Shown: piece by piece, positions 17,221 to 26,380 of the stretch
Layout of the letters: every line of letters starts with the position of its first letter
Numbering within the stretch: the first letter of the stretch is position 1
From: Humisphaera borealis
GTDB lineage: Bacteria > Planctomycetota > Phycisphaerae > Tepidisphaerales > Tepidisphaeraceae
DNA length: 64,000 bases
Assembly: GCF_015169395.1 (NCBI RefSeq)
Contig: NZ_CP063458.1
Span: forward strand, 5,270,001 to 5,334,000
Direction of reading: 5' to 3'
Made by a program: the position numbers and the translations under genes
The notes under the pieces: model-generated
Told to the model about the DNA's origin: nothing
Database searches by the model: none
What the model saw: the letters and a program-made list of their open reading frames with translations, nothing else

Positions 17221-17360
17221 CCCGAGTCGGGCGTTCGGTACCGTGATTCGGAGTTATGGTCAGATCATTGTCATCAAGAGCCGTCTGAACGGTGGACGGA
17301 TTGTCACTTCGGCAACTTTACCGCAGGCCGAGTTACCCTCCGTGTCGCCGTGCCTTGTAT

Positions 17361-17592
17361 GTTGGATTCCGTACCGTCTGATGGTTCAATGCCGCATGCC
17401 GCTTCGCGGGCTTCGAAGCGTAGCGAGAAGCCCGCGAAGCGGCGGCGGACGACAGATCGTTCGTGCCCAGACGCCGTCATGGACGTCGTCACGGAGCCTG
17501 ATCGTCGTTCGTCGCGTGCGACTAACCCGAACAGCCGACTGAACCCGTCGCCCCGGCGGCGGAGTTCGTATTCGCAAGGCAGGGAAGCCACC
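17361..17592 (+). ncRNA. Candidate IS110 bridge RNA region with a 17-bp hairpin
   Basis: These 230 non-coding bases lie between the composite repeat and the IS110 transposase. GCCGCTTCGCGGGCTTC (17398-17414) pairs perfectly with its complement at 17427-17443 around a 12-base loop. IS110-group elements encode a structured bridge RNA in the non-coding end upstream of the transposase that pairs with donor and target DNA. Position and structure fit, but I cannot fold the RNA or find the element ends, so the call is an inference. Confidence 0.35.
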
Positions 17593-18585
17593 ATGCAGCA
17601 CGAAGCCAACAGCAACGCCGTTCCGTCCGCCGCGGTGTCCGATGTCTCGTTGCCGGTCGCCGGCATCGACGTCGCCAAGGATCAGCTCGACGTCTTCATT
17701 GATGTCGTCGCCCAGCGGCTGCGAGTCAGCAACAACGACGAGGGGGTCGCACGCCTCGTCGCCACGCTGCGTCAGCACAAGGTTCGCCTGGTTGTCCTGG
17801 AGTCCACCGGCCGGTACCACCGCGCCGCGGCCGCCGCGTTGCTTCAGGCCGGCGTCAACGTCTCGGTCGTCAACCCCAAGAACGTCCGCGCCTTCGCCGT
17901 CGCCGACGGCAGGCTCGAGAAGACCGACGCGATCGACGCCCAGGTCATCGCCTCGTTCGGACGGGCGCTCAACCCGCGGATTACCGCCAAAACGCCGGAG
18001 AAACAGACGGTTCTGGCCGACCTGGTCTCCCGGCGTCGCGGCCTGGTGCAGGTCCGGGTCGCCGAACGCAACCGCGGCCAGGGACAACTGCCCACGCTGG
18101 CGGCCACCCAGTCCACGAAGCTGCTGCGGCTGGTCAACCAGCAGATCGAGGATCTGGACCGCGCGATCGCCAAGCTGATCGAAGGCGACGACGACTGGCA
18201 CAATACGTCGAAGATCATCGACTCGGTGCCCGGCATCGGGCCCGAAACGGCTAACCAGCTGGTCTCCAGCCTGCCGGAGCTGGGTAAACTCAACCGCCAG
18301 GAGATCGCCAAGCTCGTCGGCCTGGCGCCGCTCAACTGCGACTCGGGCACGCAACGCGGCCAGCGGCATATCCGCGGGGGGCGGGATCACGTTCGAAACT
18401 GCCTGTACATGGCGACGTTCAATGCCCGGCAACGCTGCGACAAGTTCCGGCGTTTCTTCGATGGTCTTGTCGGGCGTGGCAAGCATTACCAAGTCGCGAT
18501 GACCGCCTGCATGCGTAAGCTGCTGGTCATCCTGAACGAGATGGTGAAGAACAAGACCCATTGGGACTCGAAGTTCGCGTCATAA
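17593..18585 (+). CDS. IS110-family transposase
   Basis: The 330-residue product from ATG 17593 (AGGGAAG about 6 bases upstream) has the two IS110 domains. The N-terminal DEDD domain (DEDD_Tnp_IS110) starts VAGIDVAKDQLDVF, with the ESTGRYHRAAA and KTDAIDAQVIASF segments carrying further acidic residues. The C-terminal transposase_20 domain has SVPGIGPETANQLVSSLPELG (residues about 213-233), KLVGLAPLN and the conserved serine-containing stretch near CDSGTQRGQRHI. IS110 enzymes lack terminal inverted repeats and are guided by a bridge RNA. The upstream frame read-through to 17350 is non-coding. The exact element ends cannot be set from this sequence. Confidence 0.93.
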   Translation: MQHEANSNAVPSAAVSDVSLPVAGIDVAKDQLDVFIDVVAQRLRVSNNDEGVARLVATLRQHKVRLVVLESTGRYHRAAAAALLQAGVNVSVVNPKNVRAFAVADGRLEKTDAIDAQVIASFGRALNPRITAKTPEKQTVLADLVSRRRGLVQVRVAERNRGQGQLPTLAATQSTKLLRLVNQQIEDLDRAIAKLIEGDDDWHNTSKIIDSVPGIGPETANQLVSSLPELGKLNRQEIAKLVGLAPLNCDSGTQRGQRHIRGGRDHVRNCLYMATFNARQRCDKFRRFFDGLVGRGKHYQVAMTACMRKLLVILNEMVKNKTHWDSKFAS

Positions 18586-20957: not shown

Positions 20958-21191
20958 TCACTCTTTTTCGTTCTCGCCCTCGCGCTCCGGCGACAGCACC
21001 ATGTGCCAGTGGTCGGGCAGCAGGCACCAAGCGTAGAGGTTTGACCGGGTATCGCACGAAGGTGCGTCGGCGAGGATATGGCAGAACGCGTCGTAGTCGG
21101 CGTCTTTGACAAAGAGTTTGTGCCGTCCGTCGCCGCGATTCAGGACATGGTAGAATCCCCCGGCGGCGATGGAGCGGGCGGTGCGTGGCAT
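20958..21191 (-). pseudogene. Truncated REP-associated tyrosine transposase (RAYT)
   Basis: The 77-residue frame begins MPRTARSIAAGGFYHVLNRG and reaches the HUH motif LPDHWHMVLSPE, the N-terminal third of a Y1/RAYT transposase (normally about 200-230 residues). It then ends EGENEKE, so the catalytic tyrosine region is lost. The sequence at its end (AAGGGACACCACGCC then TCACTCTTTTT) resembles the GGGACATCACTCTTTTT flank of the group II introns, suggesting REP-type sequence on both sides of the fragment. Confidence 0.75.
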
Positions 21192-21259
21192 GACCGCCGA
21201 AGGTAGCCAGGAGGGCAGGCGAGAGGCGAGGGTCAACAAAAAAGAGTGATGTCCCCTTT

Positions 21260-21975
21260 GTGTGCAAGGAGAAGCTGTATCTGAGATGAGAGTAGGCCCC
21301 TCGCAGTCGAGCGACAGGGCTTGGCTGCAAACCGGCTCAAGCTGCGGTGATAAAGAGTCATCGTGGTGAGCGTTGAGCGAAAAGGCGCGGCAGGACCGCG
21401 TCAGGTAGAGTCCATGAAGGCGAACGCAAGTGAACCGCTGATGAAGGGTCGTAACCATCCCAGACGGCGTCAAAACCGGGGCCTTAAAGGGAGTCCCGGG
21501 AGCAGTGTCGGCGGAGACCTGTTTGCGACCGACACGACGTCCGGCCTTAAGGCGGCGCGAGCATGGATTGGGCTCAGATACGGAACCTTGGAACCTGTCG
21601 CTTCGATGTAAAGGGAAAAGGCGCAAGCGGAGACCCCGCGAGGCTGAAAGTACCGACGTGGGAGGCTTTGCCTCCCCGAGGGAGGTTGCACCTCCCGTTG
21701 CGAGGCACAGGGGCGGAATGATCCGTAGTAGCGAAGATCGGCCGTAACCGGCCGGGACGGCCAGAGGGCGCGCATTAATGCGTCGCCTGGCGGCGCGAAG
21801 GGATCGTGTCATCCAGTTCTTGTTCAACGAGTCAACCGCGGGCGACCGCGGGAAGAACTCATGGCCGAGGACAAACCGGTGTGGTGAGGCCGGGGATGGT
21901 TGGAGCCGGATGAGTCGAGAGGCTCACGTCCGGTTTTGGGAGAGCGGGAGGGTGCGAATCCCTCCCGCCACTCAC
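21260..21975 (+). mobile_element. ORF-less group II intron, copy 1
   Basis: The 5' end is GTGTG (21260), the group II consensus. A domain I signature is GGCGAACGCAAGTGAACCG followed by GATGAAGGGTCGTAACC. Domain V is at 21902-21936: GAGCCGGATGAGTCGAGAGG then CTCACGTCCGGTTT, matching the AGC triad, the bulge and the GAGA tetraloop. Domain VI is the GCGGGAGGG-TGCGAAT-CCCTCCCGC hairpin. The 3' end is only approximate (21971-21979). There is no reverse transcriptase frame in about 716 bases, so mobility needs a protein in trans. AAAGGGA at 21486 could pair as EBS1 with TCCCCTTT of the 5' exon. Confidence 0.85.
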
Positions 21976-22427
21976 CTCTCCCTCGCTTACCCGGCTGGGC
22001 TGACGGTGACAATCCCGCTCGCGCCCAAGCCGGTCTCCAGCACCCGGTTGCCGAAGAAAATCACTGACGCGGCATGGGTCGAGGTAACCGTCGACCTTCG
22101 GCCCGGGGTCGTCGCGTTCCTCGACAAGCACCTGAAGATCAAGCGGTCAGAGCCGCCCGTCACCCAGCCCGCCAGCCGAAGCGGCGTATCCCCGCCATAA
22201 GCGAAGTCCCACGCGACCGGCTCACACTTATTAGACCAGGCACTGCGGGCATCATGCTAACAAACAGATAACGGTTTGCCGTCAGGCAAAAACTGGCACT
22301 ATTGGCGTCGAAAACACTTGAGCCCGATGGTAATGTGGCGAGCTCAAGGGCGTTTGGATTCCAGAATCGCCGATTTCCGACCTGACGGTAAGCCGTTGCA
22401 CAAACAGTTCTATTCATCTGGACCAGC

Positions 22428-24416
22428 ATGACTGACGACGCTTCGCCGAGAAACTCGCCCCAGCCTGCAACCGGCGTGCAGCGAAAGTGGCTCGGCGCCA
22501 CCTGGATCGGGATCCCCGTTCACTGCTTTATCGTCCTGTTCTTCCTCGAACAGTGCAGCCGCGCCAAACCAGCCCATTTTTTCCGGTTCCTTGCCGCTAA
22601 TCCTGGCTATTTCTGTCTCAATTACCTTCTCATCCTGTTCTTCACGTGGTTCTGCATCGCGGTGACGGGCCGGCTCCTGGCCGGGCTCGGGCTGGCGCTG
22701 CTCCCGCTGATGCTGATCGGCGTGATCAACCGGCTCAAACAGGATTTCCTGTTCGACCCGTTCTTTCCCAGCGATCTTCGGATGATCGACGACTTCTGGG
22801 CCGTCGGGATCAACTTCGTCAAGGGTTGGCAGGTGCTTCTGGTGCCGCTGGCACTGTCAATGCCCTTGGCCGGATGGTGGTTCGACCGGCGGATGCGCCA
22901 TCCAACGCTGGGATGGCGGCGGCGCGCGGCGATCGGAATCGCCTGCGGCCTGCCTTTGGCGACGCTGATCTTGAGCCCGGGAACCCCGCTGGCGAAAATC
23001 ACGCGCGAGCTCGGCATCCCGGCACGCGTTGAATTATCGCGCGCTGCCTACCGCGAGGCCGGACTGCTGCTGGGCTTCACCCTGAACCTCAAGACCGACG
23101 GCCAGCGGCTGGTCCCGCCAGAGGAGTACAGCCGGCAGTCCATCGAAAAACTCACCGGCGAGCTGATGCACGACATCCAGCCCCGGGCCAATGCAGCCAC
23201 CGCTCCCAGCGGCGACGACATGAAGCGAATCGCCCGGAACCTGGTGGGCGGAAGTCCGTCGATCAATGCCGCAAGCATCGCGCGCCCGCCGCACGTCATC
23301 ATCCTCCACTTGGAATCCCTATTCCGGATCCAGGACGTGCCCCAATTCACGCTCTCGCGAAACCCCACGCCGAACATCGAGAAGCTCTGGCGCGATTCCG
23401 GCTCGATCCGGACGCTGACGGCCAAGTACGGCGGCGGATCCATCTTCTCAGAGTTCGAGGCGACGACGGCGTTCTCGACGTCGCTCTTCCCCGACCCGTT
23501 CAACCTGCCGTATCAGCTTGTGCTGCCCAAGGGCAGACCCGTTCCGACGCTGGCATGGCTTTTCCGCGCCCACGGCTACCGCAGTGCCGCGATCGCGCCG
23601 TATGCCCGCCGGCTGTTCCAGGTGGACAAGCTCTACCCCCTGCTGGGATATGAACAGCACATCTCCCGCGAGGATTTTTCGCCCTCCGACTATGACGACG
23701 CATACATCGCCGACCGCGCGACCGTCGATCGCCTGCTGACGCTGCTCAAGGGTGCCGACAAGCCGATGTTCGTCTTCACCGCGACGATGGGCAGCCACGG
23801 GCCGTACGTCAGCAGCGGAAAGAGCATGACCGACGTCACGATCATGAACCCGCCGAACCGCTCCGGCGACGCGCAACTCGACGGCTACGTCCGCGCGATT
23901 GCGCGGCTCGACCTGTCGATCAAGACGCTGTTCGAAGGGCTCGGCAAACTCGATCGGCCGGTTGTCGTGCTGGGGTATGGCGACCATCTGCCCGGGATCC
24001 CGGAGTTGCAGAAGACGCTGCTGCCTGGGGAGAACGACCCCGTTGCGTCAAAAAAGGCACGCATGTTCACGACGGTGGCCTTCCTGTGGGCCAGCGATGG
24101 AAAGGCCGCGAGCGACCTGCCTGACCAGTCCCAGCGAAGCGTCGCGCTGCTCGTGCCGGCGCTGCTGCGGCGGTGCGGGATTCGCCACCCGTTCTACACC
24201 GAATTCCTGGAGAGCGTGGCGCAGGCCTGCCCGGGAATCGGGGTGGATCTCTACATCGGCCCCGACGGGCAGGCATCGTTCAAGCCCCCGCCGGGCGCGA
24301 CGGAGCGACTCGAAACGCTCCGGACGATCGAATATGACATCTTCTTCGGCAGCCAGTTCTGCGCGCCGTCGCTTTTCCCGGAGTTTACGAGCATGACGAC
24401 AGAACCCTTCAAGTAA
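22428..24416 (+). CDS. LTA-synthase-like sulfatase family membrane protein
   Basis: The 662-residue protein has an N-terminal membrane part (helices at about 25-45, 62-82, 84-102, 135-152 and 168-183) and a C-terminal alkaline-phosphatase-fold domain from about residue 288. Metal and catalytic motifs are HVIILHLES (E296), the nucleophile loop YGGGSIFSEFE with Ser338 where LtaS has Thr, FTATMGSHGPY, and GYGDHLP. Relatives transfer glycerol phosphate or phosphoethanolamine to surface glycans or lipids; OpgB-like proteins share the GGG[ST] loop. The substrate is unknown. It is alone between two inverted group II introns, 450 bases from one and 80 from the other. Confidence 0.85.
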   Translation: MTDDASPRNSPQPATGVQRKWLGATWIGIPVHCFIVLFFLEQCSRAKPAHFFRFLAANPGYFCLNYLLILFFTWFCIAVTGRLLAGLGLALLPLMLIGVINRLKQDFLFDPFFPSDLRMIDDFWAVGINFVKGWQVLLVPLALSMPLAGWWFDRRMRHPTLGWRRRAAIGIACGLPLATLILSPGTPLAKITRELGIPARVELSRAAYREAGLLLGFTLNLKTDGQRLVPPEEYSRQSIEKLTGELMHDIQPRANAATAPSGDDMKRIARNLVGGSPSINAASIARPPHVIILHLESLFRIQDVPQFTLSRNPTPNIEKLWRDSGSIRTLTAKYGGGSIFSEFEATTAFSTSLFPDPFNLPYQLVLPKGRPVPTLAWLFRAHGYRSAAIAPYARRLFQVDKLYPLLGYEQHISREDFSPSDYDDAYIADRATVDRLLTLLKGADKPMFVFTATMGSHGPYVSSGKSMTDVTIMNPPNRSGDAQLDGYVRAIARLDLSIKTLFEGLGKLDRPVVVLGYGDHLPGIPELQKTLLPGENDPVASKKARMFTTVAFLWASDGKAASDLPDQSQRSVALLVPALLRRCGIRHPFYTEFLESVAQACPGIGVDLYIGPDGQASFKPPPGATERLETLRTIEYDIFFGSQFCAPSLFPEFTSMTTEPFK

Positions 24417-24494
24417 TTTACTTACGCCTATAGCTCCTCCCGCTGAAAGCGGCGACAATTTGGGAAATCAAAGGACGAAGAAAAGGACGAAGAG

Positions 24495-25210
24495 GTGAGT
24501 GGCGGGAGGGATTCGCACCCTCCCGCTCTCCCAAAACCGGACGTGAGCCTCTCGACTCATCCGGCTCCAACCATCCCCGGCCTCACCACACCGGTTTGTC
24601 CTCGGCCATGAGTTCTTCCCGCGGTCGCCCGCGGTTGACTCGTTGAACAAGAACTGGATGACACGATCCCTTCGCGCCGCCAGGCGACGCATTAATGCGC
24701 GCCCTCTGGCCGTCCCGGCCGGTTACGGCCGATCTTCGCTACTACGGATCATTCCGCCCCTGTGCCTCGCAACGGGAGGTGCAACCTCCCTCGGGGAGGC
24801 AAAGCCTCCCACGTCGGTACTTTCAGCCTCGCGGGGTCTCCGCTTGCGCCTTTTCCCTTTACATCGAAGCGACAGGTTCCAAGGTTCCGTATCTGAGCCC
24901 AATCCATGCTCGCGCCGCCTTAAGGCCGGACGTCGTGTCGGTCGCAAACAGGTCTCCGCCGACACTGCTCCCGGGACTCCCTTTAAGGCCCCGGTTTTGA
25001 CGCCGTCTGGGATGGTTACGACCCTTCATCAGCGGTTCACTTGCGTTCGCCTTCATGGACTCTACCTGACGCGGTCCTGCCGCGCCTTTTCGCTCAACGC
25101 TCACCACGATGACTCTTTATCACCGCAGCTTGAGCCGGTTTGCAGCCAAGCCCTGTCGCTCGACTGCGAGGGGCCTACTCTCATCTCAGATACAGCTTCT
25201 CCTTGCACAC
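24495..25210 (-). mobile_element. ORF-less group II intron, copy 2, inverted
   Basis: This is copy 1 in reverse. Conceptual translations across 24491-25231 and 21239-21979 are identical, so the shared 741 bases are nearly or fully identical. The intron 5' end is at 25210 (GTGTG on the minus strand). The shared stretch continues 21 bases into the 5' flank (AAAAAGAGTGATGTCCCCTTT, positions 25211-25231) and a few bases into the 3' flank, then the surroundings differ. This suggests two insertions into the same target motif. Confidence 0.85.
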
Positions 25211-25908
25211 AAAGGGGACATCACTCTTTTTCGGGTCCCGCTGGTCCTCGGGCCGGCGTTCCCAAGGGTCGGTCCGTCGTCCCAAGATCCTCTACCTTGC
25301 CTGGCAGCGGCGTACCGCAACCCATGGCACCCCAAAAACACGCAAGTGCCGACTTCCTGCGCTGCATCCCAGCCCTGTGGTTTCCACGGATTCTACTTGC
25401 AAATCGGATACCCGCGACTTAACATATACCGTACTGATTGCCTGCCCGGGTCGGACGCCTTCGGGGGTTCGGCCGGGGTGGGCTTGTGCTGCCTGGTGCC
25501 TGGTCGTCGCGGGTGTGATCCGTCGTCGGACGGGGTGTCGGACCGGGTGGCGCGTGGCGGAATGACATGGTACTGTCGGCGGGTCGTGTGGCCCGCCCTC
25601 TTGGTGGCATTGGGGTGTTGACTCGGACGGTCCGGCGGCGCGGATGACTTCTCGTCAGGAGCCGTGCACGAAGTAAGCGGTCGTGGGGCATAGTGTCGCG
25701 CCGTTGGCGTGAGATGCACTGTCGCGCCGTTCCCGCTTATTTCGTGCGCGGCTCTTTCGGAACGTCATGCGCGCTAACGGAGCGGGCCGAGTGGTCTTGT
25801 TTCGGGAGGTGGGAGGTAGACGCGGGAAGCCGACGGTCGCCTTGGGTTCGTTTGGCGGCGTGCGGTTGGCTTGGGTTCGTTCGGCAGAATGTCAGAGTCG
25901 TTCGGGAA

Positions 25909-25934
25909 GAGTGCACCTGCGGTGCGACCGCTAA
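25909..25934 (+). repeat. GTGCGACCGCTAA family repeat
   Basis: One full unit reading GAGTGCACCTGC then GGTGCGACCGCTAA. Confidence 0.85.
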
Positions 25935-26022
25935 ACAGGTACCGACGGTTTTGCTGGGTTCGATTGGCGGATCCGCGGCTGGCTTGGGTTCGTTTGGCGG
26001 AATGTGAGAGTCGCCTGGGAAG

Positions 26023-26047
26023 CGTGCACCTGCGGTGCGACCGCTAA
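26023..26047 (+). repeat. GTGCGACCGCTAA family repeat
   Basis: A second unit in the same orientation, 114 bases after the previous one, also followed by ACAGGT. Confidence 0.85.
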
Positions 26048-26380
26048 ACAGGTGCGGACTGTTGCGCTGGGTTCGTTCGGCGGATGGGCCTGTGGCGTGG
26101 GCCTGTACGCATGCCCGTGCCTTTTGGCGTCCGACGCTCACGGGCAAGCGTACTTGCCCATGCCACGGGGCAACGGCGTTTCGTCTGGCGAAGTCGGCTT
26201 GGGTTCGTTTGGCACTGTCGGCTTGGGTTCGTTTGGCGTTCGTGTGCGGCGGCGGCAGGGTGAGTGCGACCGGCCGGCGGATAGGAGGTTCGGCATGATC
26301 TGGCGGTTCGGGCGATTTGGGCAATCTCTGAGCCTTGAAAGAGCCCTGACGGAGCGGCAGAACCCATGGCGTGGGCAGGG

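Follow-up and report, generated by a model that had tools for sequence, protein, structure and literature searches.

Two identical group II introns without a protein gene at RAYT-associated repeats in Humisphaera borealis

In a 64,000-nt stretch of the Humisphaera borealis genome (the window; positions 5,270,001-5,334,000 of contig NZ_CP063458.1, a single-contig assembly of 7,189,892 bp with an estimated completeness of 98.4%), a 741-nt block at 21239-21979 on the plus strand recurs with 100% identity at 24491-25231 on the minus strand. A reading made from the letters of this stretch alone, here called the original prediction, had claimed this inverted pair and taken it for two group II introns without an open reading frame (ORF), of the kind that needs an intron-encoded protein (IEP) supplied in trans. 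How did two identical introns come to lie here in opposite orientation, with no protein of their own to move them? We consider it probable that an ORF-less deletion derivative, mobilized in trans by an IEP, recently retrohomed into two repeats of the type that ends REP-associated tyrosine transposase (RAYT) elements, and that the helper was later lost.

Identity and insertion site of the introns

Both elements are group II introns. The Rfam model for the conserved core of domains 1 to 4 (D1-D4, RF01999) matches copy 1 at 21288-21406 on the plus strand and copy 2 at 25064-25182 on the minus strand, and the model for D5-D6 (RF00029) matches them at 21901-21976 (plus) and 24494-24569 (minus). Scores are the same in the two copies, 106.3 bits for D1-D4 (E 6.9e-21, 118/118 positions) and 51.9 bits for D5-D6 (E 2.7e-07, 77/77 positions), each in the correct place and on the correct strand. 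The claim of two ORF-less introns is borne out by these matches, as are a domain V with its AGC triad and GAGA loop, found by covariance model in both copies, and a domain VI hairpin. When folded, D6 leaves an unpaired CA whose A, at 21970, lies 7 nt from the 3′ end, within the 7-8 nt expected of a bulged branch point; the z-score of D5-D6 is -4.6. The 5′ end at 21260, GTGTG, conforms to the GUGYG consensus. The 3′ end reads ACC, where AY is usual, and its position is set by empty target sites.

The intron is shorter than the repeated block, as each 741-nt block comprises a 717-nt intron and 24 nt of target sequence. Copy 1 (GTGTG...CCACTCACC) spans 21260-21976 on the plus strand, with ends set by an alignment of relatives and by the empty sites; copy 2, which Rfam and sequence comparison show to be 100% identical to it, spans 24494-25210 on the minus strand. 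The original prediction had the block itself opening with GTGTG, but the bases at 21239-21259 and 21977-21979 belong to the target at both sites. A repeat search extends the match to 746 nt; the additional bases mismatch when the flanks are compared, and the match ends after TCT. Relatives in other genomes share a conserved stretch from GTGTG to, in nearly all of them, CACTCACC, and their flanks are unrelated.

The target consists of a 5′ exon, AAAAAGAGTGATGTCCCCTTT, which precedes GTGTG at 21239-21259 (plus, copy 1) and 25211-25231 (minus, copy 2), and of TCT, the start of the 3′ exon, at 21977-21979 (plus) and 24491-24493 (minus). A near-identical 5′ exon, ending in CCTTA, precedes an intron 5′ fragment at 4.16 Mb. 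An 18-nt core of the motif has 15 genomic copies within 2 mismatches, with none for a reversed-pattern control. Empty copies at 162.5 and 164.2 kb read AAAGAGTGATGTCCCCTTT-TCTTCGTCC without interruption (CCCCTTT^TCTTC, sharing the TCT of both introns), and copy 2 reads CCCCTTT, then the intron, then TCTTCGTCC, so that both of its exons match the empty sites. The empty sites and the exons of copy 2 thus fix the intron at 717 nt and leave the remaining 24 nt as target.

Reading outward, the motif stands at the ends of RAYT genes that are intact at 3.07 Mb and, as a tandem pair, at 4.16 Mb. It also stands at the end of a truncated RAYT gene at 20985-21191 on the minus strand, recognized by tblastn (67% identity over residues 7-74); copy 1 has the outer end of this gene as its target. 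An intact RAYT paralogue scores above the cut-off for Y1_Tnp and just below it for REP_Tyr_transpos (68 vs 80 bits). In the loci examined, no RAYT gene accompanies any of the remaining motif copies, the one at intron copy 2 among them. The position of the motif at RAYT ends indicates that the terminal repeat of a RAYT-type element serves as the home of the intron. The block as a whole is not a REP-derived repeat, a candidate we rejected, since only its 21-nt 5′ flank is RAYT-associated in the motif search and the 717 nt are intron by Rfam. No paper in the open-access literature searched describes group II introns in REP or RAYT repeats, which is weak evidence of absence. The tandem RAYT genes at 4.16 Mb (4,158,894-4,160,512) are 91% identical to each other, and between them lie the intron 5′ fragment and the target repeat in inverted copies.

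Recognition of this target can be read from the intron. The exon-binding site EBS1 consists of the six loop bases that follow an ACCGGG/ACTGGG stretch, here AAAGGG at 21486-21491 (plus), and pairs 6/6 with the intron-binding site IBS1, CCCTTT, with which the 5′ exon closes (21254-21259). Four relatives with other exons pair 6/6 at the aligned position (GGTGTG/CGCACC, GGTGGT/GCCACC, GGTGCG/CGCACC and TGGATG/CATCCA, G-U counted). Over the five introns the correct offset gives 28/30 pairs, or 30/30 when a one-base shift is allowed, and other offsets give at most 17; in the H. borealis intron one inserted base shifts EBS1 relative to the relatives. The pairing is kept across differing exons, and this covariation supports both EBS1-IBS1 and an insertion by reverse splicing.

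A lost intron-encoded protein

Domain 4 (D4) of the H. borealis intron retains a trace of an IEP. Comparison with the IEP-bearing introns of three other genomes (G092, G348 and G054) reveals a deletion scar at 21861-21887 (plus): ATGGCCGAGGACAAACCG, the first six IEP codons, followed by GTGTGGTGA, leaving the open frame MAEDKPVW*. The IEP-bearing relatives read AAACCG-TTTTGTATTTCG at the start of the IEP, and the H. borealis intron reads ATGGCCGAGGACAAACCG-GTGTGGTGAGGCC, running directly into the end of D4. An IEP remnant (here MAEDKP) and a deletion border are the kind of trace that an ORF deletion in D4 has left in the TeI3 introns of Thermosynechococcus elongatus. Judged by these sequences, the H. 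borealis introns are deletion derivatives of an IEP-encoding form. What was lost may be gauged from G054, where the full-length form measures about 1.85 kb and its IEP belongs to the group II reverse transcriptase/maturase family (TIGR04416, 420.7 bits), with RVT_1 and GIIM domains; an endonuclease domain was not reported in the domain search.

The most telling relative is G092, a Humisphaera metagenome-assembled genome of the same family (JANXVV010000257.1 and other contigs), which holds both IEP-bearing and ORF-less copies and has 14 RF00029 matches vs 2 in H. borealis. Two of its ORF-less copies lose the IEP after the same codon as the H. borealis intron. The EBS1 of its IEP-bearing copy is that of the H. 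borealis intron, and D5-D6 are 95-96% identical between the genomes. Unlike H. borealis, G092 has IEP-bearing copies, and the RAYT target repeat was not found in it at ≤2 mismatches. Within G092 the IEP-bearing copy agrees with one of these two ORF-less copies at 97.7% identity over 177 nt. That both forms occur together and are so similar where compared makes help in trans plausible. The H. borealis copy stands equally far (87.1%) from the IEP-bearing and ORF-less forms of G092 in the compared stretch.

Related sequences occur further afield. Two loci (L051 and L052) of G120, a genome from the same class but a different family, appear ORF-less in the D4 that precedes D5, which suggests that the IEP was lost repeatedly. 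The closest plasmid IEPs show about 58-59% identity, and rhizobial plasmids carry sequences about 70% identical to the 5′ half of the intron.

Origin of the two copies

A probable history follows from these features. The ancestral intron would have carried in D4 the gene for a reverse transcriptase/maturase-type IEP, and a deletion from codon 7 to about the stop codon would have turned it into an RNA-only element. Its spliced RNA may then have been carried by an IEP made elsewhere, with the pairing of EBS1 AAAGGG to IBS1 CCCTTT guiding retrohoming into DNA, to the point CCCCTTT^TCTTC of the repeat found alongside RAYT elements. Such events would have struck two oppositely oriented sites, 4 kb from each other, recently enough that the copies are still identical; the 100% identity agrees with the original prediction, which read it as recent spread or homogenization. 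At 4.16 Mb the same repeat is followed by the somewhat diverged 5′ fragment (97% identity, query positions 2-112), which would be a third insertion. Another fragment, from the 3′ part of the intron (85% identity), lies at 6.722 Mb. It has lost D5 and is antisense to a retron-type reverse transcriptase gene, whose end it adjoins. The two fragments indicate that insertion happened more than once and that decay is in progress. These fragments, the flanking repeat with its link to RAYT genes and the deletion scar go beyond what the original prediction contained. The genome search for more copies added fragments but no further intact intron: RF00029 found no D5-D6 match at E≤1 beyond the two copies, among 150 of 376 candidates scored.

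The last step in this history would be the loss of the helper IEP from the assembled chromosome, and with the IEP missing there the introns are probably stranded, though they may retain some splicing. The absence of a reverse transcriptase frame from the block holds, as a genome-wide RVT_1 search has no match in it. The original prediction went on to expect a matching reverse transcriptase elsewhere in this genome, and for this assembly that expectation is refuted. No GIIM domain occurs in the 7.19-Mb assembly, and with the G054 IEP as query there was no match at E≤1 in it; the same search recovered the IEPs of G092, G054 and G348. RVT_1 found two proteins only, both retron-like: one of 337 aa at 6,722,566-6,723,579, whose stop codon lies inside the end of the decayed intron 3′ fragment, and one of 609 aa at 3,492,595-3,494,424, with a C-terminal retron-type reverse transcriptase and a long N-terminal part without a Pfam match. 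A genome of the same genus, G151 (65% complete), had no match to the intron, the IEP, D5-D6 or the target motif.

Several points weigh against recent retrohoming followed by helper loss. The IEP absence rests on one assembly, and a plasmid or unassembled replicon could carry the gene. Gene conversion could explain the identity, and there are only two full copies. For the second exon contact, EBS2-IBS2, no position pairs in all five introns compared.

The helper IEP may persist on a plasmid or unassembled replicon, which would leave the introns mobile by the same mechanism and not stranded. Perfect identity of the copies implies recent movement, the related genome G092 retains the IEP and ORF-less copies together, and for almost all bacterial ORF-less introns a possible helper is present in the same genome (PMC4424553). 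The assembly is nevertheless a single contig, 98.4% complete, without IEP or GIIM, and there is no plasmid indication in the data set; we regard a persisting helper as possible but unlikely.

Alternatively, one intron retrohomed and the second copy was made or homogenized by recombination, through duplication or gene conversion. The 100% identity does extend over the 24 nt of target, and pre-existing repeats could direct recombination. However, identity ends at the intron plus target motif, as expected from retrohoming, copy 2 is flanked on either side by exon sequence that agrees with an empty site, and a third 5′ junction elsewhere carries the same motif. A recombinational origin of the second copy is improbable on this evidence.

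By analogy with C.te.I1 of Clostridium tetani, the introns might be protein-independent ribozymes that splice and persist without an IEP. The lack of an IEP in the assembled genome and the intact D5, D6, D1-D4 core and EBS1 would suit such ribozymes. The D4 scar, however, speaks for descent from an IEP-encoding form, domain 4 of C.te.I1 has no IEP similarity (PMC3919590), and both copies sit in intergenic repeats, with no host gene seen that would select for splicing. We find independence from protein quite improbable. Mobilization by one of the host retron-type reverse transcriptases (3.49 or 6.72 Mb) is highly improbable and was rejected. In its favour, no other reverse transcriptases were found in the genome, and the gene at 6.72 Mb directly adjoins the intron 3′ fragment. 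But retron families, which do not fit a helper, give the best matches to both proteins, neither has GIIM/domain X, and the neighbouring fragment lacks D5 and is antisense to the gene.

Known systems and the surrounding region

Mobilization of ORF-less introns in trans is established in T. elongatus (PMC2882425). The TeI3 introns there arose alike, by a D4 deletion that removed the ORF and left IEP remnants; they too are mostly intergenic, small RNAs that spread by EBS/IBS-guided retrohoming using the IEP of a relative. T. elongatus, however, has six potentially active IEPs for 17 ORF-less copies (PMC2882425), whereas H. borealis has two full copies and no IEP in its assembly. The H. borealis introns would therefore work like TeI3, yet in the assembly they lack the same-genome helper that TeI3 has and are not presently helped members of that type.

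Introns that home into mobile elements are also known from Sinorhizobium meliloti, in RmInt1 and RmInt2 (PMC5894124). RmInt2 has its target in the inverted repeats of ISRm17 (PMC5894124), a choice similar to that of the H. borealis intron at RAYT ends. RmInt1 and RmInt2 differ in encoding their own IEP (class D; PMC5894124), and the H. borealis target is a RAYT/REP-type element.

A 2015 review names C.te.I1 as the only exception among bacterial ORF-less introns to having a helper in the same genome (PMC4424553). Like C.te.I1, the H. borealis introns have no IEP in their genome as assembled; their domain 4 is not free of IEP sequence. In C.te.I1 there is no IEP remnant, additional D5/D6 units follow the intron, and splicing is alternative (PMC3919590), whereas H. 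borealis shows an IEP deletion scar with six IEP codons in D4 and two identical, mobile-looking copies. The H. borealis introns are thus a candidate second exception after C.te.I1, one in which descent from an IEP-encoding form is visible.

The case appears to capture the step after helper loss, with identical RNA-only introns, a visible scar and a relative that has both forms. It also provides a natural pair for testing the reach of an IEP towards ORF-less introns not its own, and the ends of RAYT elements now join the mobile-element termini that serve as intron homes.

Between the introns lies a gene of the sulfatase fold resembling lipoteichoic acid synthases by protein family searches (22428-24416, plus), a passenger outside the intron system. 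An orthologous empty site was sought through this gene; among the 25 other genomes of the family it had no match at E≤1e-40, and the genome contig collection gave none either; with no close family relative of the gene there is no outgroup arrangement. Inversion of the 2.5-kb segment by homologous recombination between the 741-bp perfect inverted repeats is possible from the sequence. A further reading, distinctly unlikely, is that the trans-mobilized introns, their helper gone, now persist at RAYT ends as RNA-only elements that splice without an IEP or cause this segment with its envelope-enzyme gene to invert.

Other repeats and mobile elements lie nearby. A gene for an IS110-family transposase, at 17350-18585 of the window, is a few kb from the intron pair. 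A dispersed 15-mer, CTTGGGTTCGTTTGG, which encodes LGSFG in one frame, has 36 genomic copies (0 for the reversed control), and four of these are clustered beside intron copy 2, at 25841-26236.
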